Positions 4,092-62,235 of a stretch of 64,000 nucleotides of DNA are shown here, in pieces (position 1 is the first letter of the stretch; every line of letters begins with the position of its first letter). The stretch is from Burkholderiales bacterium (GTDB taxonomy: Bacteria > Pseudomonadota > Gammaproteobacteria > Burkholderiales > Casimicrobiaceae), in NCBI GenBank assembly GCA_025354165.1, contig JANXNI010000041.1, positions 1 to 64,000 of the forward strand, given 5' to 3'. A program made the translations under genes and the position numbers. The notes beneath the pieces were generated by a model. That model saw only the letters and a program-made list of their open reading frames with translations. It ran no database searches and was not told the DNA's origin.

Positions 4092-4230
4092 ACAGCTTTC
4101 GTGTGTGAAAATTGAGGAACCGCCGTTTATATAGGGCTGGCGACGGTTGTCACATACATTTCCGCATAGTCGACTTCTATCTTTTATTCAGCCTAGCCCC
4201 AGTGTAATGAGGCTTTCATGAAAAAGCTGT
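4092..4230. repeat. Dispersed palindromic element, copy A
   Basis: Begins CAGCTTTC and ends AAAAGCTG, with inner arms GGGCTGG and CTAGCCCC around a centre AGTCGACTTC. It lies between the start of the ModA-like gene and the end of phaM, eight bases from the phaM stop codon. At 139 bp it is the longest copy, with extra sequence in the left half. Confidence 0.7.
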
Positions 4231-4237
4231 ATGTGTT

Positions 4238-4636
4238 CTAGCGTCGGCGCGCGCTGCTTCGTGCCGCCCGTTTCACCGTACGCTCAACCGATTCGGCGCC
4301 CTCTTTCATCGATTGTGTCGCCGACTCGCTCATTTTGTTGAATGAGGCGTAGGCATCGCGCTGCATCTCCATCGTCTTGATCGACATTTCTAGTCCTGTG
4401 AGCGAGAGTTTCATCCACGCTTCCACGGCGCGTAAATCCTGAATGCGTCGATCGATTTCGACCGGGTTGATCGCCTTCATGAATTGCTGCGGATCGAACG
4501 CGCCGGCGCCGCCTGCAGAGCCCGCTCCGGGCATGCCCATCATCCCCGCAAACGGGTTCAACGCGGCGGGGTTGGACATCATCTTTTGCATCGACTCGGC
4601 CCACGCGGCCCAAGGTTCGTTTCCAGCTTGACTCAT
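4238..4636 (-). CDS. phaM: PhaM-type PHB granule regulatory protein
   Basis: PhaM proteins activate PHA synthase, sit on the granule and tether it to DNA through a basic tail. This 132-residue product has an N-terminal Met/Pro/Gly-rich segment (NPFAGMMGMPGAG), then a helical domain at about 55-100 with IDRRIQDLRAVEAWMKLSL and the following MEMQRDAYASF, the signature stretch of the PhaM family. It ends in the basic tail VKRAARSSARRR, suitable for DNA binding. PhaC at the left end of the window has a similar NPFA plus Met/Pro/Gly-rich N-terminus. The tail is shorter than the Lys/Ala/Pro tail described for the Ralstonia protein. Granule association and synthase activation are inferred from the family. 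Confidence 0.75.
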   Translation of the reverse strand: MSQAGNEPWAAWAESMQKMMSNPAALNPFAGMMGMPGAGSAGGAGAFDPQQFMKAINPVEIDRRIQDLRAVEAWMKLSLTGLEMSIKTMEMQRDAYASFNKMSESATQSMKEGAESVERTVKRAARSSARRR

Positions 4637-4735
4637 GATGTCTCCTATTGATGACGATGTGGACTGATGCCACGCTGCTAGACTCTTCGCGAAGTCTACT
4701 CGTGAATTGTCCTGAAAGGTTTAGGGTCTTAAGTA

Positions 4736-5008
4736 GTGGGAAAAATCATATTCTGGATCGTCGTATTTTTTCTGGCGCTGCTGGCACTGCGGCTGGTTTC
4801 TGTCCATAAGACCCGAAACGAACGACGGGATCTTGACCACGAAAATCGCGACAAGCCAGATGATCCAAAAAGAAAGCGCGACGACAAACCGGCGTCGGAC
4901 GCAATGGTCAAGTGCGCTCGCTGCGGCGTGTTCACCCCCAAGGCCAATGCCGTTATGAAAAGTGGAGGCTGGACCTGTGGCGACGAGAGCTGCGCGCAAA
5001 AGCGCTAG
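4736..5008 (+). CDS. PP0621 family membrane-anchored zinc-ribbon-like protein
   Basis: A 90-residue protein with one N-terminal transmembrane helix (residues 3-22), a highly charged linker rich in Arg, Asp and Lys, and a C-terminal cysteine module: MVKCARCGVFTPKANAV, then WTCGDESC. The CxxC...C....C arrangement suggests a small metal-binding finger and matches the PP0621 family usually found just upstream of pilS in betaproteobacteria. Its end overlaps the proposed pilS start by 47 bases, implying translational coupling or a later pilS start. Molecular function is unknown. Confidence 0.75.
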   Translation: MGKIIFWIVVFFLALLALRLVSVHKTRNERRDLDHENRDKPDDPKRKRDDKPASDAMVKCARCGVFTPKANAVMKSGGWTCGDESCAQKR

Positions 5009-8612: not shown

Positions 8613-8627
8613 CAGTGCGAAATTGGG

Positions 8628-11945: not shown

Positions 11946-13454
11946 ATGGACTTAATTAACAATCTGTCCCTCGGATTCGGTGTCGCGCTAACCGCCACCA
12001 ATATCCTGTACGCACTCATCGGTTGTCTGCTTGGCACCCTGATTGGCGTGCTCCCCGGTATCGGCCCCGTTGCGACGATCGCGATGCTGTTGCCTACGAC
12101 CTACGCGTTGCCTCCGGTCTCGGCCCTCATCATGCTCGCCGGTATTTATTACGGCGCGCAGTACGGCGGATCGACGACTGCCATTCTGGTCAACCTTCCC
12201 GGCGAATCATCCTCGGTGGTGACGGCACTCGATGGCTATCAGATGGCTCGTCAGGGTCGAGCGGGCGCAGCGCTGGGTATTGCCGCCATCGGCTCGTTTA
12301 TCGCGGGTTCGTTCTCGACGTTGCTGGTGGCCGCATTTGCGCCACCGTTGTCGGAAGCTGCGTTGAAATTCGGACCGGCTGATTATTTTTCGCTGATGGT
12401 GCTCGGTCTGCTTGCAGCCATCGTTCTGGCCCATGGCTCCATCGTCAAAGCAATTGCGATGGTCATTCTTGGCATCGTCCTGGGTCTGGTCGGAACCGAC
12501 GTGAATTCTGGCGTGGCGCGTTATAGTTTTGACGTACCGGAACTGACCGACGGCATTGGTTTCGTCGGCGTGGCGATGGGCATCTTCGGGATTGGCGAAA
12601 TTCTCACCAATCTTGAACAGGGCGAGGATCGCGAAGTATTCACCTCGAAAGTCGGCAGCCTGTTGCCGACGCTGCAGGACTTCAAAGACACCTGGGGTGC
12701 CATCACGCGCGGCACGTTACTCGGTTCGCTGCTCGGCATTCTGCCTGGTGGCGGCGCACTGCTCGCGTCGTTTGCCTCGTACTCGTTCGAGAAAAAACTC
12801 GCTGGTGCCAACGCCAATCCACCGTTCGGCAAAGGAAACATCCGTGGCGTAGCCGCTCCGGAATCCGCCAACAATGCTGGCGCGCAAACCTCCTTCATCC
12901 CGCTTCTGACGCTAGGTATTCCGCCGAACGCCGTGATGGCGTTGATGGTCGGTGCCATGACCATTCACAACATTCAGCCGGGGCCGCAGGTAATCACCTC
13001 GAACCCGCAGCTTTTCTGGGGTTTGATCGCTTCGATGTGGGTGGGTAACGCGATGCTGGTGATTCTGAATCTGCCGTTGATCGGTATGTGGGTTCAGTTG
13101 TTGAAGATCCCGTATCGCCTGCTCTACCCGATGATTCTGGTGTTCTGCGCAATCGGCGTGTACACCGTGAACAACACGACGTTTGACGTCTGGATCATCG
13201 CGGCATTCGGCGTGATCGGCTACATCTTCGCCAAGCTTGAATGTGAAGCAGCGCCGTTGCTGCTTGGCTTCATCCTGGGCCCGATGATGGAGGAGAACCT
13301 ACGCCGCGCCATGTTGTTGTCGCGCGGCGACGCGATGGTGTTTCTGGAGCGCCCAATCAGTGCGACGATGCTGGTGCTGTCGCTGATTCTGCTGGTGATT
13401 CTGGCGCTTCCGGCAATTCGCAAAAAGCGCGAAGAAACGTTTGTCGAGGATTAA
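11946..13454 (+). CDS. tctA: Tripartite tricarboxylate transporter large membrane subunit TctA
   Basis: Large subunit of the TTT transporter, 502 residues with about 12 hydrophobic helices, the family's normal size. Recognisable segments are LIGCLLGTLIGVLPGIGPV, IYYGAQYGGSTTAILVNLPG and GVAAPESANNAGAQTSFIPL, which carry the conserved Gly/Pro-rich TctA motifs. It follows tctB directly and is closed by a hairpin terminator. The substrate cannot be told from the membrane parts; the specificity lies in a TctC-type binding protein encoded elsewhere. Confidence 0.95.
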   Translation: MDLINNLSLGFGVALTATNILYALIGCLLGTLIGVLPGIGPVATIAMLLPTTYALPPVSALIMLAGIYYGAQYGGSTTAILVNLPGESSSVVTALDGYQMARQGRAGAALGIAAIGSFIAGSFSTLLVAAFAPPLSEAALKFGPADYFSLMVLGLLAAIVLAHGSIVKAIAMVILGIVLGLVGTDVNSGVARYSFDVPELTDGIGFVGVAMGIFGIGEILTNLEQGEDREVFTSKVGSLLPTLQDFKDTWGAITRGTLLGSLLGILPGGGALLASFASYSFEKKLAGANANPPFGKGNIRGVAAPESANNAGAQTSFIPLLTLGIPPNAVMALMVGAMTIHNIQPGPQVITSNPQLFWGLIASMWVGNAMLVILNLPLIGMWVQLLKIPYRLLYPMILVFCAIGVYTVNNTTFDVWIIAAFGVIGYIFAKLECEAAPLLLGFILGPMMEENLRRAMLLSRGDAMVFLERPISATMLVLSLILLVILALPAIRKKREETFVED

Positions 13455-13545: not shown

Positions 13546-14361
13546 ATGAGCAATACAACGCGTCGCGACGTTTTGAGATCGCTAGGCACAGTCGGCGTGA
13601 TGAGTGGGGGTGCGGCGTTGGCCGGGTGTGCTGCCGTCCCGTCTCCAGCCTCGCCAGCGCTGGTCGCAAGCACGCCGTTCCGAATTGCCGCCACAACTAT
13701 TCCCATCGTTGGCAGCACGCAGATGTTTCCTGTGCGCCGCATCTATTGCATTGGCCGCAACTACGCTGCACATGCGCGCGAAATGGGCTCGGATCCAACG
13801 CGCGAACCGCCGTTCTTTTTTCAGAAACCAACTGATGCGATTCAGCTCGTGCCTCCGGGACAAACGGTCGATCATCCGTATCCGCCGCTGACCAAAAATT
13901 ATCACTACGAGATTGAGCTGGTCGCCGCGCTACATAGCGGTGGCCGCAACATTGCACCAGCGGATGCGTTGAAGCATGTGTTCGGCTACGCAGTCGGGCT
14001 CGACATGACGCGCCGCGACTTGCAGCGAGCGATGGGGGATGAAAAAAAGCCTTGGGAGATCGGCAAAAGCTTCGACCACTCAGCGCCGATTGGCCCGATT
14101 CATCGCGTCGATGACACCGGACATTTCACCCGTGGCAAGATTGAGTTGCTGGTCAATGGCAAAGTCAAACAAAGCGCCGATTTGCAGCAGATGATCTGGA
14201 ACGTCGCCGAACAGATCAGCAAGCTCTCGGAGGCGTTTGAGCTGATGGCGGGTGACATCATTTACTCAGGAACCCCAGAAAACGTAGGCCCTGTGGTGCG
14301 CGGCGACGTGATGACTGGCAAGATCGAGAAGCTGCCGGATATCAACGTGAAAGTCGTTTGA
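13546..14361 (+). CDS. Fumarylacetoacetate hydrolase-family protein with Tat signal and lipobox
   Basis: The FAH fold cleaves carbon-carbon bonds in beta-keto acids such as fumarylpyruvate, using a divalent metal. The catalytic part begins around residue 65 with RRIYCIGRNYAAHAREMG and keeps FQKPTDAI, the metal-binding YEIEL pair of glutamates and GLDMTRRDLQ, plus IYSGTPENVGPV near the end. These are closest to fumarylpyruvate hydrolases. The odd part is the N-terminus: TRRDVLRSLG is a twin-arginine motif, followed by a hydrophobic stretch and LAGC, a lipobox with C28. That predicts Tat export and lipid anchoring, whereas this family is normally cytosolic. A good ribosome binding site (AAGGAGG) sits ahead. 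The real substrate is unknown. Confidence 0.85.
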   Translation: MSNTTRRDVLRSLGTVGVMSGGAALAGCAAVPSPASPALVASTPFRIAATTIPIVGSTQMFPVRRIYCIGRNYAAHAREMGSDPTREPPFFFQKPTDAIQLVPPGQTVDHPYPPLTKNYHYEIELVAALHSGGRNIAPADALKHVFGYAVGLDMTRRDLQRAMGDEKKPWEIGKSFDHSAPIGPIHRVDDTGHFTRGKIELLVNGKVKQSADLQQMIWNVAEQISKLSEAFELMAGDIIYSGTPENVGPVVRGDVMTGKIEKLPDINVKVV

Positions 14362-14382
14362 ACTGCTGGCAAACAGTTCACC

Positions 14383-14494
14383 TTCTGGCTGAATTGACGT
14401 TTGCATAGGGGCTAGCGGTCTATAGCGGCCAAAGTCAACTTTCATCGATATGAGAGTGAAGCCCCTATTCATGCTGGATTTCGGCATAAAGCTG
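14383..14494. repeat. Dispersed palindromic element, copy B
   Basis: Left half TTCTGGCTGAATTGACG then TAGGGGCTAG; right half AAGCCCCTATTCATGCTG then TTTCGGCATAAAGCTG, with the centre AAGTCAACTT. Its right half is nearly the same as in copy C at 62 kb. It lies between convergent genes. Confidence 0.72.
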
Positions 14495-14595: not shown

Positions 14596-17022
14596 TTATT
14601 CGAAGTCAGGAACGGGTGGTTTGCCCGGTGCGCCGCCCTCGGCGCGTGGCGCAGCCCCTGCACCTGGCCCGCGACCACGACGACGGCGACCGCGCTTGGC
14701 ATCTGCGCCACCGGCTGGGACGTTGCCGCCCGCTGGAGGGTAACCACCGCTGGCGGCGCTCCCTGCATTGGCGCCATTGCGACCGCCGCGTCCGCCACGG
14801 CTGTTGCCATTACCACCTCGGCCCGCGTTGCTGCCTCGGCCAGCGTCGGTCCCGTTACCCGCATTTCCACGATAGCCCGGTGCGACGTTGCCGTTCACCT
14901 CGCCATTCGCGCCGCGTTTGACTTTGTTGCCGGGTGTGCGTTGGCGGCGACCGACGACCTGCATCTCGGTTGCACCGCCAAACCCGGGGAATTGCTGTTG
15001 TTGCAGGGGTGCCGGCATTGCGCTCGCACCGGTGCGGAAGCGTGGACCTCCGCGTCCGTTTTGACCCGCGCCAGCACCGCCACGCCCCCCTTGACGACGA
15101 CCGCCACGGCCCTGCCCTGCGTCCGCGTCGACGGGTGCAGGGTTGTAGATCGCCTCATGCTCGGTTGCCGAACGCATCGGTCCCAGTGGTTGCTGGGGGA
15201 TGCGATTGCGACCACCGAAGCGAGCGGCTTTTTCGAGCTTCTTCTTCGAGCGCAAACCGACCGACTCAAGAATCTCGAACGTCTCGGCTTCGTCGAGCAA
15301 TTTCGATTGCCCGCGCTTCAACCACGACGGCATTTGCACACAGCCGTACGTGGTGCGGATCAGGCGGCTAACAACGAGGCCCATGTGCTCGAACATGCGT
15401 CGAACTTCGCGGTTACGGCCTTCGTTCAACGTCACGCGATACCAGTGGTTTGCGGCGTCGCTGTCACGATCAATACGATCCAGCGAGAGCAAGCGTGCTG
15501 GGCCGTCATCAAGCTCGATGCCGTCCATCAACGCGTCTTCCTGCTCCGGAGTCAGCTCGCCCAAAGTGCGCACCGAATACTCACGCAGAATTTCATAGCG
15601 CGGATGCATGAAGCGATTGGCGAGTTCACCGTACGTGGTGAACAGCATCAGGCCTTCCGAGTTGTAGTCAAGACGACCGACTGCAACCCATTTGCCGTGA
15701 TCGGGCCGGGGCAGGCGATCAAACACAGTGTCTCGTTGCTCCGGATCATCTCGGCTGACGATTTCGCCGGATTGCTTGTGATAAATCAGGATGCGCGGGT
15801 TGTCGTCGCCCAATTTGACCGTGACTTTACGTCGATTGACGTGAACGCGATCTTGCTCATTAACAATCTGACCAACGCGTGCCTTGACACCATTAACGTC
15901 AACCTCGCCGCGTTCGATCAGCGCTTCCATGTTCCGGCGCGAGCCCAAGCCCTGCTGCGCAAGCACCTTGTGCAGGCGCTCGCCGTCGCGTTCGCCCTGA
16001 TCGTTAACGCCAGAAATGATTTCGTTTTCTGTCGACTCAATGGTGTGGCCCTCGTCGTCAAACATCGCGACAGCGGGCTGAATCATTCGGTCGCGTGGGC
16101 CTTGACCGATGCGAACGGGTGGTGCGCTTTGGGCGCGCTTTTCACGATGGTTGCGGTTTCGTCTTGCCGAGCGATCCATCGGACGGCTCGGATCGCCGAA
16201 CGCGCCAGGATTGGGGCCAAACGCGGCCGAGCCATCACCGGAATCGTCGAGCACCCAGTTGGTGATGCGCGGCGTGTTGTTGGAATGCTCGCCATCGACA
16301 CCGGAGAATGCGGCGTTGTTGGTGGCTTCGCCTGAGGCGGTCGCATTGGGATCGTAGGGTGCGCGTGGTTGGCGTGGGCTGTTGCGATCACCGAAGCCTG
16401 ATCGAGTATCGGAACCCGGTCGTGAATTACGACCGCGACCACCGCGACGATTGCGGCGTGGGCCGCGTTCGCTGTTCGCGACTCCGTTCGCGCCGTAATC
16501 TGCACCGGTGATCGCGCCATCGGCTGCGGGCGCTGAATGCATCGCACCGGCATTGGCTGAATGATCGCCATCGACGCTGGGCGCGCTTTCATTCGGGACG
16601 AATGCAGCGCCTTCTGCATTGGCAGCACCTTCGACTCTCGGAGGACGCTGAACACGGGGTTCACGCGGGGCGCGCGGCTGCCGCGGCTCGCGTGGTGGAC
16701 GAGCCGGCCGGACTTGCGCTTCGCCCGACGCGTCTGATGCGCCCTGCACCGCTTGCTGCGGCTGCCCATCAGCGTTTGTTTGAATCGACTGCGAATCCAG
16801 TGGCACGCCATCGGGCGCGGCAGCGCGCGGAGCGCGTTGCTGGCGCGGCGGCCTTGCGGGACGTCCGTTCGGGTTACTCGCTGGTCGATCAGTGCGCGGC
16901 GCTCGCGCACCTTGCGCCCCTTGCTTCATTTTCTTCGCGAACGCTGGATCGACGTTGCCGTTCACATCCCCCGGTTCGTGATCATCAAAATTGCCAGCGT
17001 CGGAATCATGCATGTCATTCAT
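14596..17022 (-). CDS. rluB: RluB-type 23S rRNA pseudouridine synthase with very long RG-rich tails
   Basis: Converts a uridine of helix 80 in 23S rRNA (position 2605 in E. coli) to pseudouridine. The enzyme core spans roughly residues 345-590: an S4 RNA-binding domain (ERLHKVLAQQGLGSRR, VDVNGVKARVGQIV) and the RsuA-type catalytic domain with GRLDYNSEGLML holding the catalytic aspartate and EGRNREVRRMFEHMG. E. coli RluB has about 290 residues; this protein has 808. The extra length is low-complexity N- and C-terminal sequence rich in Arg, Gly, Pro, Asn and Ala, with many GRGG-like pieces. Two bases separate it from scpB, the conserved scpA-scpB-rluB order. Long antisense frames here come from the biased composition. 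Confidence 0.9.
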   Translation of the reverse strand: MNDMHDSDAGNFDDHEPGDVNGNVDPAFAKKMKQGAQGARAPRTDRPASNPNGRPARPPRQQRAPRAAAPDGVPLDSQSIQTNADGQPQQAVQGASDASGEAQVRPARPPREPRQPRAPREPRVQRPPRVEGAANAEGAAFVPNESAPSVDGDHSANAGAMHSAPAADGAITGADYGANGVANSERGPRRNRRGGRGRNSRPGSDTRSGFGDRNSPRQPRAPYDPNATASGEATNNAAFSGVDGEHSNNTPRITNWVLDDSGDGSAAFGPNPGAFGDPSRPMDRSARRNRNHREKRAQSAPPVRIGQGPRDRMIQPAVAMFDDEGHTIESTENEIISGVNDQGERDGERLHKVLAQQGLGSRRNMEALIERGEVDVNGVKARVGQIVNEQDRVHVNRRKVTVKLGDDNPRILIYHKQSGEIVSRDDPEQRDTVFDRLPRPDHGKWVAVGRLDYNSEGLMLFTTYGELANRFMHPRYEILREYSVRTLGELTPEQEDALMDGIELDDGPARLLSLDRIDRDSDAANHWYRVTLNEGRNREVRRMFEHMGLVVSRLIRTTYGCVQMPSWLKRGQSKLLDEAETFEILESVGLRSKKKLEKAARFGGRNRIPQQPLGPMRSATEHEAIYNPAPVDADAGQGRGGRRQGGRGGAGAGQNGRGGPRFRTGASAMPAPLQQQQFPGFGGATEMQVVGRRQRTPGNKVKRGANGEVNGNVAPGYRGNAGNGTDAGRGSNAGRGGNGNSRGGRGGRNGANAGSAASGGYPPAGGNVPAGGADAKRGRRRRGRGPGAGAAPRAEGGAPGKPPVPDFE

Positions 17023-17803: not shown

Positions 17804-17935
17804 CTCTATTGATTCATTTTTGGGGGCGCATTATGTCGTCGCGCGGTGCTCGCAATCCTCATGTACCAGGGCGTACATTGCGGTTGCTGTGCTCCGGGCT
17901 CCTAACACTGCATCCCCAAAAATGAATCAATAGAG
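17804..17935. repeat. 132-bp inverted-repeat element in the scpA-scpB gap
   Basis: Perfect 22-bp inverted ends: CTCTATTGATTCATTTTTGG(GG) at 17804-17825 and its reverse complement at 17914-17935. Inside is a second imperfect palindrome built on GCAATCCTCATGTAC and GTACATTGCGGTTGC around CAGGGC. The whole element can fold into one long hairpin. It fills nearly all of the gap, touching the scpB start codon. Confidence 0.9.
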
Positions 17936-21513: not shown

Positions 21514-22755
21514 CTAGAACTTGTGACGTAGCGAGAACTGATATGACGTCGAGTCCTTGCCAGCATACGCGGTGACGCCGCCGAGGAACCCGTTGCCGCC
21601 AGCCAGCGCTTGCCCATTGGCATTGTTGTTGACTTGTGTGACGATTAGATTAACGTCGGTGCGCTTCGAAAGCGGATAGGTAATGGCGGCACCGTAAGAC
21701 TCAGAATCGGCATTGGTTGCACGACGGTCGTCAAAACGGGAATAGCCAATGGTGATCGTCGAAACACCCAACGGGATGCGCGCACCAACGTGATAGAGCT
21801 TCGCGTCCTGCATAAAGCGCGGCAGGATGCCACTGTCGATGAGCGTCGCAGGCACGCCGCCGGCCAGAAGTCCGGCACGAAGTTCCGGCGCGGACGAACC
21901 GTTCGGCTCCTTTATTGCAGCGTAGAGGGCGAACAGATTGACAAATCCGGCGTTGAAATTTCCGCCGATTGCGAGGGTGTTCAACGACTTTTGACCGGCA
22001 CTGTTGGTGCGCTCGTTGTAGCCTGCACCGACGCCAAACTGGGCCGTCTGGTAGCCGCCGTTAACCCCGACCAGGCGACCGTTTTTGGTGCCTGAGCTGC
22101 TTTCGCCAAACGCGTAGTAGCCGGTGCCGAAGAAGCCGTTTAATTCGATGCGATACAAAAGCGAGTTGCTTTCACGAATGTCGACGCCGGCCGGGATGCC
22201 AGATATCTGACCGGGTGACGCCGCAGAGGCGTTGGCGAATGCATCGAAGCGATTGGTAATTTCGAACGCTGGCGTGTATTGACGGCCTACGAGTACGGCA
22301 CCGTACGGTGTAATCAGGCCGACATAGGCCTGACGGTCAAACAGTCGGCCAGGCAGGTTAACGCCAAGCTGGGCACCGACCGCGCCGTTCAATGCAGCTT
22401 GCACTGCAGGAGGCAGCCCCGCCAGAAAACGATCAGGGAGCTGATTGCCGGAAATCGTACGGTTGCTCAATGAGCCAGTGTCGGCTTCGAAACGATTTTC
22501 GAGAACGAACACGGCTTTCATGCCGTTGCCCATGTCCTCAGTACCGCGCAAACCCCAGCGCGAACCTTCCATGATGCCGCTGGCGACCTGCGTCACGCTG
22601 CCGCCCTTGACGCCGGTGACGTGCTGCACGCCTGCATCGACCACGCCGTACAGTGTGACGTTCGCGGTTTGTGCCAGCGCCTGATTGACGGCGAGCGAGA
22701 GCGGGAGCACGGCGAGCGCTGCGGCGCTACGTGCAAAGATTGAGCTGTATTTCAT
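21514..22755 (-). CDS. General outer-membrane porin, betaproteobacterial type
   Basis: Trimeric 16-strand beta-barrel for passive diffusion of small solutes. The 413-residue precursor has a signal peptide ending NQALAQ at about residue 28, and the mature protein begins TANVTLYGVVDAGVQHV, the standard start of this porin group. It ends YQFSLRHKF with the terminal phenylalanine needed for BAM recognition. The start at 22755 has AAGGAGG seven bases ahead. It is monocistronic with its own terminator. The upstream space, shared with the divergent TonB receptor, contains a dispersed palindrome. Confidence 0.95.
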   Translation of the reverse strand: MKYSSIFARSAAALAVLPLSLAVNQALAQTANVTLYGVVDAGVQHVTGVKGGSVTQVASGIMEGSRWGLRGTEDMGNGMKAVFVLENRFEADTGSLSNRTISGNQLPDRFLAGLPPAVQAALNGAVGAQLGVNLPGRLFDRQAYVGLITPYGAVLVGRQYTPAFEITNRFDAFANASAASPGQISGIPAGVDIRESNSLLYRIELNGFFGTGYYAFGESSSGTKNGRLVGVNGGYQTAQFGVGAGYNERTNSAGQKSLNTLAIGGNFNAGFVNLFALYAAIKEPNGSSAPELRAGLLAGGVPATLIDSGILPRFMQDAKLYHVGARIPLGVSTITIGYSRFDDRRATNADSESYGAAITYPLSKRTDVNLIVTQVNNNANGQALAGGNGFLGGVTAYAGKDSTSYQFSLRHKF

Positions 22756-22962
22756 GGGTCCTCCTTGTTGCTTTGTGTGTTTTGAGCCGCCGCACCCATT
22801 AAGGCGCAACACTCAAACGTATTGCCTAATTGTGCATGCAATCGCGCTGTTTCGGTGAACTACGCACCGCGATGCGCCCGACTCGCATACGGTTGTTGCG
22901 ACCTCGCAACCCTCACGCGTTTTAATCGCCGCGATAGTAGTTTTTACGCAGCAAAATTAGTA

Positions 22963-23078
22963 CAGCTTTTTTACATAGTCCCTATTTCATAAGGGATAGC
23001 GCCCCATATTAGCGCTTGTCGACTTATAAACAATTCATGACATCGCCCTTATTCACGCAGCATTTCATAAAAAAGCCG
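22963..23078. repeat. Dispersed palindromic element, copy F
   Basis: Begins CAGCTTTTTTACATAG, centre TGTCGACTTATAA, right part TCGCCCTTATTCACG, ends ATAAAAAAGCCG. It lies between the divergent porin and TonB receptor genes, so promoters of one or both may overlap it. Confidence 0.75.
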
Positions 23079-23174: not shown

Positions 23175-25181
23175 ATGTTCCGCAACTCATCTCATCGCCG
23201 CCGAATCAGCATGCTTGTCTGCGCCGCCGCGGCCCTCGCCGCATCGTTCCCGACACAGGCGCAAACACCGACGAAAGTTGACAAAGTAATCGTCACTGCT
23301 TCGCCGTTTTCCGATCAGGACGAACTGCAATCGGTGCAACCGGCCGTCGTGGTCGGCAAGGAGGCGCTGGTCAAAGATCGGGCTGCAAGCCTCGGTGACA
23401 CGCTTTCGACGCAAGCCGGTATTCAGTCGTCGTCGTTCGGCCCCGGCGCATCGCGGCCGATTATTCGTGGGCTCGACGGGCCGCGCGTCAAGACGGCTGA
23501 GAACGGCGTCGGCACGCTTGATGTCGGCACCATCAGCCCAGATCACGCGGTCTCAGCCGAAGTGCTTGGCGCGCGCCAGATTGAGATTTTGCGTGGTCCA
23601 GCGACGCTTTTGTATGGTTCCGGTGCGATTGGAGGTCTAGTCAACGTCGTCACGGATCGCATTCCGCAAGCGCACAGCGACGGCACGCGACTACTGTTCG
23701 ACGGTCGTTTGTCGACGGCCGAGCACACGCGAGACATTGGCGGACAATTACGCACCAGCGCAGGACCGTTTGCATTCACCGGGGAAGCGTCAGACCGGCG
23801 TACCGATGACTACGAAACGGCCCACGGAAAGCTCGCGAACTCAGACACCGCAACGAAGAACGCGAGCGTCGGTGGTTCCTACATTCTGGCGAACGGATTT
23901 ATTGGCGTAGGCGTGAATCGCTTCGAGAGCAATTACGGCATTCCATCGCCCGACGCCGCGCGCATCGATCTGTCGCGCAATCGCGTAGAAACGCTGGGCG
24001 AAATCAACAACGTATTGGGGCTGGAGCGGGTGCGCTTTAGTGCGACCAACAATCAATACAAACACGCCGAGATTGAATCTACTGGCGCAATTGGAACGGT
24101 CTTTCGCAACAACGCCAGCAACGCGCGATTCGATCTGCAAACTACGCCCATGGCTGGCTGGCGCACGGTGTTCGGCGCAGAGGTTGAGCGCGCGGAATTC
24201 TCGGCCATCGGCGCAGAAACGATCGTTCCCGTGACCCAAACAAAAAGTCACGCCCTCTTCGCCGTGACCGAGAGAAAATTCGGCGCTGGACGCTTGGAAA
24301 TCGGTGGAAGATTCGAGCGCGTTTCGCATTCGCCCGAAGCACCTGTTTCGCTTCCCGACCGCAGCTTCTCGTTAGCGAATGGCTCGATTGGCTATCAATG
24401 GCAACTCGACAACATAAGCGCCATCAGCGCGTCCTACAGCCACGCCGAGCGCGCCCCCGCGATTGAAGAGTTGTACTCAAAAGGCGCACACGTCGCCACG
24501 CTCACCTACGACCTTGGCAACGCGCAACTGGCGAAAGAGCGCTCGCAAAATATCGACGTTGCCTACAAATTGCAGAGCCACGCGTGGAGCGTTCGCGCCT
24601 CCGTCTTTCGCAATAACGTGAAGAACTTCATCTACGGCGCCAGCGTTGATGAGAACGGTGACGGCGTCGCCGATCACGTCAATACCGCAGGCGAAGTCGT
24701 GGTCAATGGCGAGCTGCTTAAACGGGAATTTGTAAACGTCAATGCACGCTTCACGGGGGCTGAACTTTCACTCGGTTATGCGCCGACGCAAGGCTTCGGA
24801 TTCACCGCGATGTCCGACACGGTGCGAGGCGTCATCGTGAGCGAAAGCGGCAGTAACCTGCCGCGCATCAGTCCATCAAGAATCGGCGGCAAGCTGACCT
24901 GGCGCGGCGGAGCAAATAACGCGTGGTACACGGACGTGGGCGCAACACACGTATTCGAGCAGGACCGCGTAGCCTCGTTCGAAACCAGCACGCCAGCTTA
25001 CACGCGCGTGGATGCGTCAATTCGCTATCGCATGGCTTTTGCCAACAACCGCAGCGCAGAGCTCTACATCCTCGGCAGAAATCTCACCAATCGCGATATT
25101 CGCGTTCACACCTCGTTTTTGAAGGACTTTGCGCCGATGCCCGGTCGGAGTTTGTTTTTGGGTGTGACGACGACGTATTGA
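23175..25181 (+). CDS. TonB-dependent receptor, ZnuD-like
   Basis: Outer-membrane active importer powered by TonB. The 668-residue precursor has a signal peptide (cleavage near TQAQ, residue 30), a plug domain with SLGDTLSTQAGIQSSSFGPG, RPIIRGLDGPRVKTAENGVG and ILRGPATLLYGSGAIGGLVN, and a barrel. These plug motifs, and ELYSKGAHVATLTYDLGN in the barrel, are closest to the ZnuD zinc receptor group. The His-rich loop seen in some ZnuD proteins is not obvious. It ends VTTTY instead of a terminal Phe. The zinc assignment is inference; two direct repeats upstream may be its operator. Confidence 0.85.
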   Translation: MFRNSSHRRRISMLVCAAAALAASFPTQAQTPTKVDKVIVTASPFSDQDELQSVQPAVVVGKEALVKDRAASLGDTLSTQAGIQSSSFGPGASRPIIRGLDGPRVKTAENGVGTLDVGTISPDHAVSAEVLGARQIEILRGPATLLYGSGAIGGLVNVVTDRIPQAHSDGTRLLFDGRLSTAEHTRDIGGQLRTSAGPFAFTGEASDRRTDDYETAHGKLANSDTATKNASVGGSYILANGFIGVGVNRFESNYGIPSPDAARIDLSRNRVETLGEINNVLGLERVRFSATNNQYKHAEIESTGAIGTVFRNNASNARFDLQTTPMAGWRTVFGAEVERAEFSAIGAETIVPVTQTKSHALFAVTERKFGAGRLEIGGRFERVSHSPEAPVSLPDRSFSLANGSIGYQWQLDNISAISASYSHAERAPAIEELYSKGAHVATLTYDLGNAQLAKERSQNIDVAYKLQSHAWSVRASVFRNNVKNFIYGASVDENGDGVADHVNTAGEVVVNGELLKREFVNVNARFTGAELSLGYAPTQGFGFTAMSDTVRGVIVSESGSNLPRISPSRIGGKLTWRGGANNAWYTDVGATHVFEQDRVASFETSTPAYTRVDASIRYRMAFANNRSAELYILGRNLTNRDIRVHTSFLKDFAPMPGRSLFLGVTTTY

Positions 25182-28649: not shown

Positions 28650-28765
28650 CAGCTTTTTCACAAAACCCATATTTCATAAGGGCTGAGTCTCATTTTAACA
28701 AAATGTTGACTTACGCTGATTTATGAGTCCAGCCCGCACGAAATAGTCGATTTACCCAAAAGCTG
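28650..28765. repeat. Dispersed palindromic element, copy E
   Basis: 116 bp with exact terminal inverted repeats CAGCTTTT and AAAAGCTG. Inner arms AAGGGCTGAG and CCAGCCCG flank the centre TGTTGACTTACG. It begins at the base after the stop codon of the EamA gene. The rest of the gap to 29023 shows no gene; the last 60 bases are AT-rich and probably hold the promoter of the next operon. Confidence 0.8.
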
Positions 28766-29023
28766 ATACGCGTTCACCTGGACAATGTGCCTCGCGAAGC
28801 CACCCGAAGCCGCTCATCCGCGCGGCGCGACGGCAAACATCACTCCCAACTCCGCTTTTACAACCGCCACTCCCGCGCTGTCGACGCCAGATCTGGCTCG
28901 TGTTCTGCATCATTCCTATACATTTGTCTAAGAAATATCTTATGTTCGGATGATCTAGGGACGCCTTAAACGCGGTATAAGGGATTCATTCCAACTATTA
29001 TTCAAACGTCATATTTTTTCCCT

Positions 29024-30118: not shown

Positions 30119-30121
30119 GTA

Positions 30122-34603: not shown

Positions 34604-34706
34604 CGACGAAAATGATGCGAATGAGAGGTTTCTCGCTACATTTCCGTCGACTTTGTACCAAAACATCGTTCAGCCCGCGATCTGCTGTGCTTTCAGCCGA
34701 AAGCTG
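34604..34706. repeat. Decayed copy H of the dispersed palindrome
   Basis: The right half keeps CGTCGACTTTG, CAGCCCGCGA and TTTCAGCCGAAAGCTG as in the other copies. The left half is poorly conserved. It lies between the convergent hybrid kinase and nlpD genes. Confidence 0.5.
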
Positions 34707-41263: not shown

Positions 41264-41995
41264 CTATGCCGTCGTGCCTTTGCTGAGCCATTCGCAAATG
41301 GCGTGCAGCGACTCAATGGTCTCAACGCCGGGGGGCAATTCATGGGCATGAATATGCGCCAGATCAGGCACCCAGTGCGCGCGCGCGCCTGCGGCCACGG
41401 CGGCGGTTAACCCCGGAAGCGAATCTTCAAACGCCCAGCATTGGGTGGCGTCGACGCCGAGCTGGCTGGCGGCGTGAAGATACAGATCAGGCGCGGGTTT
41501 GCCGTGAGTGACGGCGTCGCGCCCGACCACAACGTCAAAATGCGCGAGCAAACGGGCCTTTTCCAGCTTGTGGCGTGCGAAATGGGTACCGGTTGATGTT
41601 GCAACAGCACAGCGCAAACCAGCCCCTCTGACCGCCGCTAACGCCTCGACGACGCCCGACTTGACCGGCACGCCTTTGGCAATTCGCGCCTGATAGTGCT
41701 CGTTCCACACGCGCTGATACTCATCAAACGGAAAATGCGCTCCAAACTCGGAAATCATCATGCGACCGAGCGCGTCGCTTCCGAGACCAATCATTCGCAG
41801 CGCCAGCGCCTTCGATACCGAATGTTCAAGCAGGCGGGCGGTAACGAATGTGGCTTCTTGCGCCATGCGTTCGCTGTCGATCAGAAGACCGTCCATGTCA
41901 AACAGAATCGCCGCGGGATGATCGCGGCGATTTTCTGCGGGATACAGCTTTTCGTTGAAGGCGTTATTTGACAGGGGCTGAGCCGTATAAACCAT
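41264..41995 (-). CDS. HAD-superfamily hydrolase, beta-phosphoglucomutase-like
   Basis: Phosphatase or phosphomutase of HAD subfamily IA. Core motifs: AILFDMDGLLIDSE (nucleophile and acid Asp pair), CAVATSTGTHFARHKLEKA (motif II), and KPAPDLYLHAA with WAFEDSLPGLTAAVAAG (motifs III and IV). The helical cap lies between. Starting at the ATG at 41995 gives 243 residues; GGAAAAG lies a suitable distance ahead. A GTG at 42013 would add six residues. Either start is inside copy G of the dispersed palindrome, and no ATG, GTG or TTG exists between the repeat and the catalytic motif, so the repeat encodes the first 17 or so residues. Confidence 0.88.
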   Translation of the reverse strand: MVYTAQPLSNNAFNEKLYPAENRRDHPAAILFDMDGLLIDSERMAQEATFVTARLLEHSVSKALALRMIGLGSDALGRMMISEFGAHFPFDEYQRVWNEHYQARIAKGVPVKSGVVEALAAVRGAGLRCAVATSTGTHFARHKLEKARLLAHFDVVVGRDAVTHGKPAPDLYLHAASQLGVDATQCWAFEDSLPGLTAAVAAGARAHWVPDLAHIHAHELPPGVETIESLHAICEWLSKGTTA

Positions 41996-42060
41996 AGAAC
42001 TCGACTTTTCCACTTTTATCGTCCTAGCCCTTAATCAGTCGTCATTTCACGAAAAAGCCA
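41945..42060. repeat. Dispersed palindromic element, copy G
   Basis: Begins CAGCTTTTCGTTGAAG, inner arms AGGGGCTGAG and CTAGCCCTTAATCAG, centre ACTCGACTTTTCC, ends CACGAAAAAGCC. It overlaps the 5' end of the HAD gene and ends 15 bases before the stop of the MBL gene. Confidence 0.8.
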
Positions 42061-54721: not shown

Positions 54722-55372
54722 ATGGCAGATTCCTCTTTTTTCTCTCCACGGCCCGCAAAGCCTGTGTCTAAAACGTCCTTAGTCGCTCCGACGACTGCCG
54801 CAGCGGACGCACTGCTGGAACGCGACCGCGTATTAAACACCCTCGTCGCTCGCATGGCGAACAAGGATGAAGGCGCACTGTCAGAAATGTTTGACATGGT
54901 CGCCAAACGATTGCATTCGTTCGCGCTGCGCATCGTGCGCGACGAAGGTCTGGCCGAAGAGGTAACCGAGGACGCGCTGTTTCAGGCCTGGCGTGAGGCG
55001 AACCGGTTCGATGTGGGGCGTGGCAAAGTCATTACGTGGCTGTTAACGATTTGCCGTTCCCGCGCGCTGGATGCACTGCGTCGTGCCGACATCGCGGAAT
55101 GTGTGGAAGACCCGGACGAGTTCCGCTCGCATGAGGCTAGCCTCATGGCCGAGCCTGAGCAGTTGATCAGTCAATTTGAAACCAGCAGCGCAGTGCAAGC
55201 CGCGCTATTGATGCTGCCTCCGAAGGAGCGGCAAGCCGTGAGTCTCGCGTTTTTTCGTGGTCTCACGCATCAGGAAATCGCGGATCACTGGCAAATGCCA
55301 TTGGGCTCAGTGAAGACTTTGATGCATCGCGCGTTCGCTCAATTGCGAACGCAACTTGAGGCACAACAATGA
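54722..55372 (+). CDS. ECF-family sigma factor
   Basis: Alternative sigma factor for extracytoplasmic stress genes. From the ATG at 54722 it has 216 residues. Region 2: ALSEMFDMVAKRLHSFALRI and EEVTEDALFQAWREANRFD, then WLLTICRSRALDALRR. Region 4: LPPKERQAVSLAFFRGLTHQ and MPLGSVKTLMHRAFAQLR. Other starts are possible (GTG 54656, ATG 54677); none has a strong ribosome binding site. It overlaps a ChrR-like cupin gene by four bases, the classic sigma/anti-sigma pairing seen with RpoE-ChrR. Confidence 0.9.
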   Translation: MADSSFFSPRPAKPVSKTSLVAPTTAAADALLERDRVLNTLVARMANKDEGALSEMFDMVAKRLHSFALRIVRDEGLAEEVTEDALFQAWREANRFDVGRGKVITWLLTICRSRALDALRRADIAECVEDPDEFRSHEASLMAEPEQLISQFETSSAVQAALLMLPPKERQAVSLAFFRGLTHQEIADHWQMPLGSVKTLMHRAFAQLRTQLEAQQ

Positions 55373-55893
55373 ATAACGCTACAAATATTATGAACGGTAT
55401 GGACGACGAAACTTTCCCGCACTCAGTGGCAGGCGCTATGGCCGAAGCTGTGCGCGCCGCCCCACTGGACCCGATGACTGAGCGCTTCATGAAGTCGCGA
55501 CTGATGACCCGTGTGCGTGACCTTGAGCGCGGCGACGTCACCAGCACGGTTCGCCCCGATCAGGGTGAGTGGGAAAAATTCAGCCCCCGTATCAAGATGA
55601 AAGTGCTGCGTCGCGAAGCCGATGGCACTAGCATGAGTTACCTTTTAAAGCTTGAGCCGGGTGCATTTCTCGTCCCGCACAAACATTCGATTGACGAGGA
55701 ATGTGTCGTGCTCGAAGGGGAAGTCACGATCGGTTCTGAGCTCGTCGGGCCCGGCAGCTATCACCTCGCCCCACGTGGCCTGGTGCATCAGCCAATTCGC
55801 TCCGAGCATGGCGCGATATTGTTCGTTCGCGGCAAAGAGCCGAGCTGGCGTCACACTGCCGTCAAAGAAACTTTGCGGGCGATTTTGCGCTGA
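55369..55893 (+). CDS. ChrR-like cupin, probable anti-sigma partner
   Basis: 174 residues. The C-terminal cupin is clear: LEPGAFLVPHKHSIDEECVV with the metal ligand histidines and Glu, LEGEVTIGSELVGPGSYHLA, and GLVHQPIRSEHGAILF. ChrR proteins bind their sigma factor through an N-terminal zinc domain with HxxxCxxC. That motif is absent here; the N-terminal half is short and Met/Asp-rich. It could still hold the sigma factor by another surface, or act only as a sensor. The pair is translationally coupled. Confidence 0.82.
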   Translation: MNNATNIMNGMDDETFPHSVAGAMAEAVRAAPLDPMTERFMKSRLMTRVRDLERGDVTSTVRPDQGEWEKFSPRIKMKVLRREADGTSMSYLLKLEPGAFLVPHKHSIDEECVVLEGEVTIGSELVGPGSYHLAPRGLVHQPIRSEHGAILFVRGKEPSWRHTAVKETLRAILR

Positions 55894-55901: not shown

Positions 55902-56019
55902 TACGGCTTTACGCTGAAACGACCTATACATACGGGCTATCGGCGAATTAATTAATAAGTCGATATCCCGACAAAGCCGATGTGAGCCCTTTATTAACAT
56001 CGTTATCGCTGAAAAGCTG
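55902..56019. repeat. Dispersed palindromic element, copy D
   Basis: Begins ACGGCTTTACGCTGAAACG, inner ACGGGCTATCGG and GTGAGCCCTTTATTAAC, centre AAGTCGATATC, ends TATCGCTGAAAAGCTG. It lies between the convergent chrR-like and transglutaminase genes. Confidence 0.8.
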
Positions 56020-56069: not shown

Positions 56070-56948
56070 TCATGCCGCCACAGCGGCGGACGGTTCAACC
56101 GTCGGTGCCATGCTCAACATGCGTGCCGGCCCGTAGATCGTCGCGAACGGGACGTCCTTGGCGTCGCGCCCTGTTCCAACCCGGATGAGCCATTCGACCG
56201 GGGCCATTTCGGTGGCGTCGAAAATCACCCATTGGTCGCCAAGCCACGCTTCGAACACGGCGTGGAAATCTGGCGCGCCTTCGGGGAACTTGATGTAACC
56301 GACGACGAACCGTGCTGGGATATTGAGCGCGCGACAAAACGTGATGCCAAGGTGCGCGAAGTCGCGACACACGCCTTTGCGTTGCAGGAACACGTCACAC
56401 GCGGTTGTTGTCGTATCGGACGAGCCAACGACGTATTCGATGTTGTCGTGGATCCACGAGCGAATCGCCTCGACTCGGGCCCACCCCTGCGGCAAATTGC
56501 CGAACATTTTCTGCGTGGCGGATGCGAGCAAATCGGATTCGCAATATCGCGTGGGTGCCAACAAATGTACGATCTCGGAGGGAATTTGGGAGACCGACGA
56601 TTCGGCCAATCTATCGGTCGCGTAGGACGGCGGTATCACGTCAATGGTGGCCTGATAGTGCACATTCAGCGTCCCAGCAGGCACGTCGCCACGGGTCAGG
56701 CGATTGCCGGTCGGCGCGTGCACGAATGGTCGCATTTCCACGGCGGGCAGCAGCTTTAGACGCTCCGCCACAATGCGCTGATCAGCTGAGTCAATCGGCT
56801 CAATCTGAAAGATGAAGTGACACGTATCGTCCAATTCATATTGCAGTGTGCAATCAATGTCGAAGCGAATGGGTGATGACGGTACCGTCGGTACTTTCTG
56901 CAATTTCGCCGGTGATGTAGCGCCGGTTGCCGCTTTTTCTACTACCAT
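56070..56948 (-). CDS. Transglutaminase-like cysteine protease family protein
   Basis: 292 residues from the ATG at 56948, which has AGAGG ahead. An N-terminal beta domain (FDIDCTLQYELDDTCHFIF) comes before the transglutaminase core. The catalytic triad is visible: Cys in RKGVCRDFAHLG, His in DFHAVFEAWLG and Asp in WVIFDATEMAP. Such bacterial proteins are predicted cytosolic peptidases or amidases. No signal peptide is seen from this start. Confidence 0.9.
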   Translation of the reverse strand: MVVEKAATGATSPAKLQKVPTVPSSPIRFDIDCTLQYELDDTCHFIFQIEPIDSADQRIVAERLKLLPAVEMRPFVHAPTGNRLTRGDVPAGTLNVHYQATIDVIPPSYATDRLAESSVSQIPSEIVHLLAPTRYCESDLLASATQKMFGNLPQGWARVEAIRSWIHDNIEYVVGSSDTTTTACDVFLQRKGVCRDFAHLGITFCRALNIPARFVVGYIKFPEGAPDFHAVFEAWLGDQWVIFDATEMAPVEWLIRVGTGRDAKDVPFATIYGPARMLSMAPTVEPSAAVAA

Positions 56949-56962
56949 GATGACCTCTGAAA

Positions 56963-57172
56963 CTACTGTTGAACAGCACGGTTCAAACGCAATTGGCGCA
57001 TGCGTCGATGGCAGGATTGCGTCGCAGGGCCGAGACGCGTGCGAAGGTATCCACGCATGCGAAGCGTTCTGCCTTTGAGCACGCAATATTCGTTACCTAA
57101 AATCGCGCCGTAGCCCTGGACGATGAGCCCGGTCAGTTGTTGCCGCAGCCCCTGGATTTGGTCAGTAATCAC
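56963..57172 (-). CDS. Possible small stress protein (uncertain)
   Basis: A 69-residue frame, MITDQIQGLRQQLTGLIVQG then GNEYCVLKGRTLRMRG. The spacing of GLRQQLTG, GYGAILGN and LKGRTLRMRG loosely recalls small CsbD-like stress proteins, followed by an Arg-rich tail. It fits exactly into a 190-base gap and precedes the transglutaminase gene on the same strand by 14 bases. It may also be non-coding. Confidence 0.35.
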   Translation of the reverse strand: MITDQIQGLRQQLTGLIVQGYGAILGNEYCVLKGRTLRMRGYLRTRLGPATQSCHRRMRQLRLNRAVQQ

Positions 57173-59570: not shown

Positions 59571-59577
59571 AACAAAA

Positions 59578-59913: not shown

Positions 59914-59943
59914 AGCAAACTCCTCAAAGTAGTAGAGAGCACA

Positions 59944-60085
59944 GTGACGCAGTAATGCGGTCACGTCACGATGGAAGTAAGGCTAAATTTCCTTGGCGAT
60001 GCTGTATGTCGTACGACAGAGCGATTGCATGTCGGCAAATGCCTACAGTGGCGTCAGGGGCTGGATGATGCGAAAATTTCGCATC
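59944..60085. promoter_or_regulatory. Two palindromes in the divergent space before the M3 peptidase
   Basis: GTGACGCA-GTAA-TGCGGTCAC at 59944-59964 has one base inserted in the right arm. GATGCGAAA-A-TTTCGCATC at 60067-60085 is a perfect 9-bp inverted repeat, 15 bases before the M3 start. With a single centre base it looks like a protein-binding site, not a hairpin. Confidence 0.5.
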
Positions 60086-60099
60086 CCCCGGAGACATTT

Positions 60100-61980
60100 A
60101 TGCCATCTGCACGCGAAGTGTTTGACACCCTCAACAGCGACTACTTGAGGGTTCACAAGACCAAGGAAGACCTGTTCTGGGCCACCTACATGGCCACCTC
60201 GGGCGATGATGCCGGGTTCGTGCGAGCGGAAGAATCGTACAAAAACTTCATCGCTGATCCGGCGCGATTGGCATTAGTGCGAGACGCTCTAAACGGTTTG
60301 CCTTCCAGTGAAGGTGAAGCGACGCGCACGCTGCGCCACGGTCTGGATGGTTGGCGCGCTTTGATCGAATGCAACGTGATCGAGACCGATTTAGCGCGGC
60401 AGCTGATGAGCGATCTCATCAAACTCGAAGCAGATCTGTTTGCGAAGCATCGCACGCATGTACTGCGCCACATTAACGAGGCAGGCGCATGGGAAGATGC
60501 CAGTCTCGGCACGCTGGGCACTAACCTCGCAACGAACCGCAATGAGGCCGCGCGCAAAAGCTCGTACGACGGGCTGATGTCGATCGAGCGCTGGGCACTG
60601 GAGAACGGTCTGATCGAGATTGTGAAAAAGCGCAACGCCTTCGCACGCGCACAGGGTTTCGCGAATTTCTTTGACTACAAAGTGCGCAAGAACGAGTGCA
60701 TGTCGGCCGATCAGCTTTTCAGAATCCTCGACGATTTCGAAGCGCGCACGCATGATGCCAACGCGCGTGCGCTGCGCGAGCTTGAGCAAAAGCATGGTGC
60801 CAGCGCGATAAAACCGTGGAACCTGCGCTTCTATAAGAGTGGCGATGTGACGCGCCAACTCGATCCTTATCTGTCGTTCGGTCAAGGGCTGCGACGCTGG
60901 GTGGAGAGTTTCCGAAAGCTCGGAATTTCCTATCGCGGCGCGACGTTGCAACTTGATCTGCTGGAGCGTAAAGGCAAATTTCAGAACGGCTTCTGCCACG
61001 CCCCGGTGCCCTCGTTTTATGACCGTAACGGCGCGTGGGTGGCCGGTGAAATTAACTTCACGGCGAGTGCACAGCCAGATCAAATCGGAAGCGGAGCGCG
61101 CGCAATCGCAACGCTCTTCCACGAGGGCGGTCACGCGGCGCATTTCTCTAACGTGACGCAAAACTCGCCCTGCTTTTCGCAGGAATTTCCACCGACATCG
61201 ATGGCTTACGCCGAAACACAGTCGATGTTTTGCGACAGCCTGCTCGAAGACGCCGATTGGCTCAAACGTTATGCAAAAAATGCGGCTGGCGAGTCGATAC
61301 CGGATGAATTAATCCACGCGAAGATTGAGGCCGATCAGCCGTTTGCCGCTTGGAATGAGCGCGGTATTCTTGTCGTTCCGTATTTTGAGCGCGCGCTGTA
61401 TCAGCTTGCGGATGACGAGCTGAACACGGAGCGTCTGATTGCGCTGGCTCGCGAAAGTGAACAGCGCATTCTCGGCGTCCCCAGCGCACCGCGTCCTCTG
61501 CTCGCGATCCCGCATTTGCTCAATCAGGAAGCTGCAGCTTCCTATCACGGTTATTTGTTGGCGAACATGGCAGTGTATCAGACGCGCGCCTACTTTGAAC
61601 GCGAGTACGGCTATCTGACCGACAACCCCGCCATCGGCCCAGCGCTCGCGAAGCACTACTGGTCTCCAGGCAACAGCATCAGCCACGATGACACGCTCAA
61701 AAGCCTCACGGGCGAGTCATTCAATGCGAAGTATTTGGCCGACAGTTGCAATCAGACGGTTGAGCAAGTGTGGCACGACGCGCAAAACAAAATGTCAGCA
61801 GCAGTGACCCGCGCCTACCCGTTGCCGGGTGCATCCAGTCTCGACGCTCATATCCGTATCGTGCACGGCGCGGAGCTGATCGCCGAGAATCGCGAATCGG
61901 ACGAGGCCATGTGTGAACAGTTTGAGCGCTGGATCAAAGAGCACTATCCGGCAACGCGCGACGACGTCACGAGGCACTAG
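60100..61980 (+). CDS. M3 family zinc oligopeptidase
   Basis: Cytosolic peptidase that degrades short peptides. 626 residues; the zinc site is LFHEGGHAAHF (HExxH type) with the third ligand Glu in AYAETQSMFCDSLLED about 25 residues on. FCHAPVPSFYDRNGAWVAGE and the C-terminal NQEAAASYHGYLLANM belong to the thimet fold. The ATG at 60100 has GGAG ahead, and gives the usual length; 59971 would add 43 non-conserved residues. No signal peptide. The subgroup within M3 is not settled. Confidence 0.9.
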   Translation: MPSAREVFDTLNSDYLRVHKTKEDLFWATYMATSGDDAGFVRAEESYKNFIADPARLALVRDALNGLPSSEGEATRTLRHGLDGWRALIECNVIETDLARQLMSDLIKLEADLFAKHRTHVLRHINEAGAWEDASLGTLGTNLATNRNEAARKSSYDGLMSIERWALENGLIEIVKKRNAFARAQGFANFFDYKVRKNECMSADQLFRILDDFEARTHDANARALRELEQKHGASAIKPWNLRFYKSGDVTRQLDPYLSFGQGLRRWVESFRKLGISYRGATLQLDLLERKGKFQNGFCHAPVPSFYDRNGAWVAGEINFTASAQPDQIGSGARAIATLFHEGGHAAHFSNVTQNSPCFSQEFPPTSMAYAETQSMFCDSLLEDADWLKRYAKNAAGESIPDELIHAKIEADQPFAAWNERGILVVPYFERALYQLADDELNTERLIALARESEQRILGVPSAPRPLLAIPHLLNQEAAASYHGYLLANMAVYQTRAYFEREYGYLTDNPAIGPALAKHYWSPGNSISHDDTLKSLTGESFNAKYLADSCNQTVEQVWHDAQNKMSAAVTRAYPLPGASSLDAHIRIVHGAELIAENRESDEAMCEQFERWIKEHYPATRDDVTRH

Positions 61981-62116
61981 ATCAACGGCATCGGCCGTGT
62001 TGGCTGATCGCAGTACGCAGGCAGCCGTTGCAACGCTTTCGGATTGAGCATCAAAGTCCGGTCACGGCGCGCGGAATTTGACGTTGAGAGTTGAGCAAAA
62101 AATCAATTTTTAATCA

Positions 62117-62235
62117 ACAGCTCTACGCTGAAATGTTTATTTAACATGGGCTATAGGTCAATTTATGCCTATGGTCGAGAAGTTCGATAAATCAATGCGA
62201 GCCCCTATTCATAATGGCTTTCAGCAAAAAGCTGT
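62117..62235. repeat. Dispersed palindromic element, copy C
   Basis: 119 bp. Begins ACAGCTCTACGCTGAAATG, inner ATGGGCTATAGGTC and GAGCCCCTATTCATAATG, ends CTTTCAGCAAAAAGCTGT. The ends pair over about 18 bp (ACAGCT.TACGCTGAAA with TTTCAGC.AAAAGCTGT). It is the clearest copy of the family and lies between convergent genes, 14 bases from the hydrolase stop. Confidence 0.85.

Follow-up and report, generated by a model that had tools for sequence, protein, structure and literature searches.

The window analysed here, 64,000 nucleotides of a Burkholderiales bacterium of the Casimicrobiaceae (contig JANXNI010000041.1, positions 1 to 64,000), carries between its genes a series of palindromes of about 116 bp with a constant order of short conserved blocks, and the question that this raises is what such a dispersed element does on the chromosome. 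A first-pass annotation had listed eight places and had offered miniature inverted-repeat transposable elements (MITEs), REP-like elements or structured RNAs at transcript ends as possible identities. The family was confirmed to be real and to be larger than was first claimed. The sequence features described below make it highly probable that the element is a selected site at which a protein wraps DNA, and not a mobile element or an RNA; as the wrapping complex we tentatively propose DNA gyrase, to which, from sequence and by analogy with described gyrase sites, we would give a probability of about 0.4.

Copy number and anatomy of the element

The genus set comprised 17 genomes (G000 to G016, several of them incomplete drafts), in which G000 is the source genome of the window, with a total size of 4.72 Mb, and G005 is a complete genome. 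We read directly 861,950 bases of G000 (approximately 18%), consisting of the window and stretches of four long contigs which were picked because they already held matches. Seven copies, six from the window and one from another contig, were used to build a covariance model. It found 85 distinct places at E<=1 in these bases, 66 of them exactly 116 bp long, and extrapolation gives approximately 449-465 copies for the whole of G000, which supports the earlier estimate of hundreds, the sampled contigs being long ones known to hold copies. When the whole genome was searched with the covariance model, which had been proposed as a check, many further copies were found: all 150 scored candidates matched, the worst at E = 5.4e-8 (both strands counted, from 1103 first-look candidates). 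An ungapped symmetric profile scored more than 18 bits at 79 places and more than 40 bits at 74 of these, and exceeded 18 bits nowhere on the reversed G000 sequence; searches for strong half-sites gave 367 positions with a partner and 21 without, compared to 1 in the reversed control (these being positions and not distinct sites).

The axis of the palindrome lies between positions 58 and 59, at a GTC/GAC dyad (the slash marks the axis), and the half-site reads inwards WW-CAGCTTTT-n3-TGAAA-n3-C-n3-T-n2-A-n3-GGGCTA-n7-AWWW-n6-WWGTC, where W is A or T and n is a position of lower information. Profile information in G000 amounts to about 84 bits. Because the spacers vary, fixed string patterns recover few or no copies (a looser one matched 2 places and a stricter one none). 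The centre of the palindrome is better given as WWGTC/GACWW and its boxes as CAGCTTTT, TGAAA, GGGCTA and AWWW; the picture of dispersed, mainly intergenic palindromes with a constant block order was borne out genome-wide.

Within the window all eight places are present within a few bases of where they had been put, and seven hold a recognisable copy. They are listed here without strand, the signs being those of the neighbouring genes:

4093..4229, copy of 137 bp whose left half has 21 extra bp, adjoining gene 4238-4636(-) at its 3' end
14379..14494, 116-bp dyad site flanked by a convergent pair, the FAA hydrolase gene 13546-14361(+) and the RluB-type gene 14596-17022(-)
22963..23078, 116-bp dyad site flanked by a divergent pair, the porin-like gene 21514-22812(-) and the TonB-dependent receptor gene 23175-25181(+)
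28650..28765, 116-bp dyad site directly 3' of the stop codon of 27621-28649(+), EamA transporter
34604..34706, decayed remnant, with the hybrid histidine kinase gene 30122-34603(+) to its left and 34721-35836(-) to its right
41945..42060, 116-bp dyad site between 41264-42013(-), whose called start overlaps the site, and 42075-42839(-)
55904..56019, 116-bp dyad site between 55369-55893(+) and 56070-57086(-)
62118..62234, 117-bp dyad site with one half 1 bp longer, between convergent genes 59971-61980(+) and 62249-63382(-)

The six window copies used in building the model score 89.6-99.7 bits, by construction, and the copy at 4093..4229 was found with E = 1.4e-4 though it had been left out of model building; in G001 a copy adjoins the homologue of the neighbouring gene 4238-4636. 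The place at 34604-34706, previously called a decayed copy, is not significant alone (best E 0.14, covariance match at 34648-34706), but the homologue of gene 34721-35836 has a site beside its 3' end in G001, G005, G002, G007 and G011, of which the window keeps only this remnant.

Two of the neighbouring loci have features of their own. The RluB-type pseudouridine synthase encoded at 14596-17022(-) has 808 amino acids with its enzyme domain at 347-594, and so carries approximately 340 extra residues before this domain and 200 after it. The block 27621-34603, with the EamA transporter and the hybrid histidine kinase, has one intact element inside and one decayed element at its end, and homologues of the genes flanking it are neighbours in G001 and G005. 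A scan of named contigs with the 1493-amino-acid protein of 30122-34603 (40 of 80 loci searched) found the element at none of them.

DNA site, RNA hairpin or mobile element

Around the dyad, A/T-rich and G/C-rich positions alternate every ~10 bp, with A/T peaks near 3-4, 12-13, 22-23, 29-36, 43 and 52 bp from the dyad and G/C maxima between them. Beyond the conserved boxes A/T peaks recur near 67, 77 and 88 bp, and the phasing reaches up to ~50 bp past both ends. Its amplitude in the flanks was compared with 1000 randomisations in which the phase of every flank was drawn anew, five periods being tried and the best taken, over ranges of 4-38, 24-50 and 38-60 bp past the edge. In G000 the observed amplitude was reached by 0, 0 and 5 of the 1000 randomisations respectively, in G005 by 0, 17 and 318, and in G002 by 28, 0 and 38. 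Phasing over roughly 200 bp is what would be expected of DNA bent around a protein.

Were the palindrome a transcribed RNA hairpin, acting as a terminator or a processing site, the bias of the sites to 3' ends and convergent junctions (see below) would be accounted for, and single strands do fold somewhat better than shuffles in 7/7 window copies tested (z -1.5 to -4.7), as palindromic boxes must. The test for compensatory change across the arms, run on 50 copies, nevertheless gave a result at chance level, with 41 pairs showing two-sided change compared to 42.0 in shuffles and pairing in 61.6% of cells compared to 61.4%. As the arms pair no better than independent columns, the palindrome appears to be a DNA dyad rather than an RNA hairpin. 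The ~10-bp phasing extending outside the palindrome, the 12 of 84 G000 copies flanked by divergent gene pairs and the lack of any Rfam match in the window at gathering score all speak against the hairpin as well, which we regard as the least probable of the explanations considered. Structured RNA was rejected on the lack of covariation between the arms and of Rfam matches in the window.

The copies are also hardly more alike than their shared motif makes them. Mean pairwise identity was 0.527, compared to 0.525 for independent draws from the profile, although the maximum was slightly higher (0.69 against 0.647), and at the 38 low-information positions copies within G000 are 30% identical, close to chance. 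Fixed spacing between boxes together with near-random spacers points to selection on the boxes and not to recent copying. Target-site duplications were sought for 82 copies with k = 2 to 10 and three offsets, and counts were at the shuffled level with single 5- and 6-bp coincidences only, in agreement with the earlier remark that none were to be seen. A non-autonomous element of the MITE or REP-like kind, mobilised by a transposase, would explain a dispersed, intergenic family with inverted-repeat ends and probably hundreds of copies. Against it stand the identity values, the lack of target duplications, the smallest spacings (1946 bp in G000 and 4085 bp in G005, although G002 has one pair at 66 bp and one at 988 bp) and, as described below, positions common to several species and the absence of sites from a 105-kb gap with conjugative-element genes, and we consider it very improbable.

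Comparison with known families leads the same way for both forms of this suggestion. Correia/NEMIS and ERIC MITEs are ~110-150 bp long and intergenic, with inverted-repeat ends and hundreds of copies, all of which recalls the element; they share sequence along their whole length, however, whereas in the element the spacers are close to random and only the boxes at fixed distances are kept. A MITE was rejected because the copies are no more alike than profile draws, are without target duplications and are missing from the single 105-kb gap of G005, and the even spacing and shared positions do not suit it either. REPs are short and tied to RAYT transposases, and BIME/REP elements bind gyrase. 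They occur clustered in alternating orientation, while the element is one fixed 116-bp dyad, unclustered in G000 and G005 and without covariation. It is like the BIME/REP elements of E. coli and Pseudomonas in being dispersed, extragenic, palindromic and present in more than 100 copies, REP elements being described in these terms and as binding sites for several proteins (PMC2817692). Single 116-bp dyads, the smallest of whose 80 gaps in G000 is 1946 bp, are not short clustered palindromes, and REP/BIME was rejected on length, spacing and architecture.

Placement and conservation in the genus

Profiles were refitted for three genomes, and the site counts were 82 for G000 (862 kb), 35 for G005 (520 kb) and 81 for G002 (460 kb); the reversed-sequence controls of all three gave 0. 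Mean site spacing is ~10 kb. The coefficient of variation of spacing was 0.61 in G000 and 0.59 in G002, compared to 0.94 ± 0.10 for random gene junctions in each case, and 0 of 2000 randomisations reached either value (G005 is considered in the next section). Convergent junctions were over-represented both in G000 (odds ratio 3.3, p = 1.4e-5) and in G002 (odds ratio 2.8, p = 0.009), the latter being enriched in divergent junctions too (p = 0.008). Judged with a simple gene caller, sites were intergenic in 77/82 cases in G000 and 33/35 in G005 but in only 42/79 in G002, where the other 37 overlap the crude gene calls by at least 30%. When 5 such G002 sites were compared with G000 proteins, two lay in gap-free alignments of 80-84% but had low scores (26-28 bits), and so sites inside coding sequence are only suggested for this genome.

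No site lies between the G005 dyads at 110311 and 215434, a gap of 105 kb. The 19 open reading frames (ORFs) examined in this gap include conjugative-element genes (PFGI-1 type ParB, STY4528 family, TIGR03752, TraC and TraG/TraD) and also code for a topoisomerase IA-type protein, a Tn3 transposase and a PglZ protein, and from ~208 kb on housekeeping genes (argD-, trpB- and glyA-like) are found. The PglZ protein, a helicase, an N6/N4 methylase, HerA and a weak SIR2-like match at ~110-215 kb resemble a defence island. An empty gap of this kind, together with the even spacing, would suit a recognition tag of the chromosome backbone for DNA uptake, repair or segregation, with the phasing as a binding aid; the element is, however, far longer and more symmetric than the uptake and segregation tags that are known, and this role seems improbable.

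Cross-species searches with a sequence-only model found matches at E<=0.01 in 16 of the 17 genus genomes (12 matches in G010 and 20 in G009, both strands counted), and G016 was the only genus genome without a match at this threshold. None of the 47 genomes from other genera of the family had matches, and in an order-wide draw of 300 genomes the 6 with matches all belonged to the genus, although the filters were strict and no more than 12 candidates were scored in any genome, so that weak matches may have escaped. Profiles run on G017 and G021, from other genera, gave counts not above controls. Inside the genus the halves in G005 are 58 or 59 bp, and the G002 motif is more degenerate while keeping the TC/GA centre, the inner A/T boxes and GGGC. 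Judged from these profiles, the recognition code changes between species inside the genus.

Positions are shared nonetheless at several junctions. The site between the porin and TonB genes (22963) is also present in G001, G005 and G004 and was not found there in G012; the junction of site 41945 is occupied in both G005 and G002. At the rluB junction the site (14379) is also seen in G001 (score 108) and weakly in G011, with an element in the G006 rluB locus; in most of the remaining genus genomes the rluB loci showed no such site. Pairs of G000 and G001 sites were set by hand from synteny and the position of gyrA, blastn auto-pairing having yielded none. In three pairs 93/114 conserved and 50/114 low-information positions agree, compared to 81% and 30% for unrelated copies within G000; a doubtful fourth pair (27/38 conserved, 6/38 low-information) was set aside. 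At the loci compared, site positions are apparently conserved while the spacers drift. In G000 (C79:25235-25350) as in G001 (L282, ~12456-12572), the 3' end of gyrA is closely followed by a dyad site.

Gyrase and other candidates for the wrapping complex

We propose that each copy is a dyad site, with ~116 bp of conserved bases and ~200 bp including the helical phasing, at which duplex DNA would be wrapped around a protein complex of two-fold symmetry, and that this complex may be DNA gyrase. The central TCGA would then be a candidate for the staggered 4-bp cut, the two C-terminal pinwheels of GyrA would have the phased arms wound around them, and the phased DNA further out would return as the T-segment. 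Strong sites at intervals of ~10 kb, many of them at 3' ends or convergent junctions, could provide roughly every topological domain with one place of supercoiling and decatenation.

The E. coli gyrase motif is described as 130 bp long and symmetric about the 4-bp cleavage stagger, with a central 36 bp, two 47-bp flanks and a 10.75-bp G/C periodicity, as too degenerate for standard motif tools, and as belonging to sites enriched downstream of active operons (PMC6379681). For Mu, a 217-bp fragment is described whose DNA winds round the GyrA pinwheels with AT minor grooves turned towards the protein, and in the right arm of the gyrase site it is AT that faces the protein (PMC11626157). The element matches this architecture in being dyad-symmetric DNA of ~130 bp with ~10.5-11-bp G/C phasing in both arms. 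With the Mu strong gyrase site (SGS) and the motif from E. coli Topo-Seq it shares a 4-bp-centred dyad of ~130 bp or more, the alternation of A/T and G/C at ~10.5-11 bp in both arms, and a preference for the downstream side of transcription units. It differs from them in having hundreds (by extrapolation) of dedicated, nearly all-or-none and evenly spaced sites with strongly conserved bases, whereas the Mu SGS is a single site with an important right arm and the E. coli motif is degenerate.

The topoisomerase genes of the genus were also compared. ParC above the family cut-off was found in 0 of the 17 genus genomes (some being incomplete drafts) and in 13 of 23 other genomes searched, and GyrA is of ordinary length in the complete genus rows, from which gyrase appears to be the sole type IIA topoisomerase of the genus and may be the only one in this branch. 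Sampled genomes of the family genera g2, g3, g4 and g6 are also without ParC above the cut-off. In the GyrA comparison, from which the wrong-frame ORF rows G012, G020, G023, G024 and G035 were left out, the readable genus rows have a short, weakly acidic C-terminal tail ending DQxEL(I/L) or SQGELI-like, and acidic runs close most of the rows that could be read from other genera; the tail of E. coli GyrA is reported to regulate supercoil levels (PMC6463007).

Several results weigh against gyrase. The genus GyrA has no special insertion in the readable rows, and the specificity of the element, ~84 bits in G000, is far from the degenerate motifs known for gyrase. GyrA of G016 is 81% identical and yet that genome has no sites, and the sampled genomes of g2, g3, g4 and g6, lacking ParC, lack sites as well. 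The comparison with the Mu gyrase site (annotated cut at 17879/17880) is weak. Sequence profiles miss this site, between 115 and 662 positions within ~17 kb scoring higher, and a two-armed phase template ranks it 545-907 of 16,811. Its right arm, described as the important one, does rank 1 of 33,870 arms with the G002 template at a +2 bp shift and falls in the best 0.5% (G000) and 0.2% (G005) with 5-66 bp templates when shifted, but the lead is slim even then (0.50 against 0.49 for the next arm). The match needs a shift of +1 to +3 bp, the right arm at the nominal dyad being only in the best 25% (G000), 12% (G005) and 0.7% (G002), it emerged after several templates and ranges had been tried, and the left arm does not match the templates. 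On pSC101 no clear site was obtained. Placement in G005 is a further difficulty, since its coefficient of variation of spacing is 1.22 and not below chance (1904 of 2000 null values were as low or lower) and its convergent bias is not significant (p = 0.22); the high value is due to the one 105-kb gap, and G005 also is short of close intervals (2/2000 randomisations).

The main alternative is a dedicated, so far undescribed architecture protein of the genus, pictured as a nucleosome-like or loop-organising complex, which would wrap ~200 bp per site and space the nucleoid into ~10-kb units. The very high specificity (~84 bits), the restriction to the genus among the genomes searched, the variation of the motif between species while the genus GyrA proteins compared stay 81-98% identical, and the even spacing at positions common to species would all agree with such a protein. 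On the other side, no candidate protein came to light, although none was looked for, and the features published for gyrase account for the architecture with no need of a new protein. We hold it to be a possibility short of even odds, and almost as likely as gyrase. The palindromic sites of chromosome-organising proteins, parS and matS, are about 13-16 bp long; the element is like them in being palindromic and differs in having ~116 bp plus phased flanks. Our literature search found no title or abstract start that describes such a family. It is possible, though at somewhat less than even odds, that the family forms a chromosome-organising system so far unknown in bacteria, in which several hundred dedicated, evenly placed dyad sites, each with ~200 bp wrapped on a symmetric protein complex not yet described, mark ~10-kb units of the backbone, are absent from newly arrived DNA and follow a recognition code that differs between species of the genus.

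If gyrase is what binds, the element would be a novel form of strong gyrase site, repeated at even distances along the whole chromosome, and if it is not, the element would be a new kind of bacterial chromosome-organising site. Both bear on the long-standing question of where topological domains begin and how supercoiling spreads along the bacterial chromosome. E. coli is described as having 400-500 topological domains per chromosome (PMC3820752), and the genus, including the complete genome G005, seems to carry about as many exact, evenly spaced sites. As these can be read from the sequence, they make it possible to test directly how wrapped sites relate to supercoiling and to domains.

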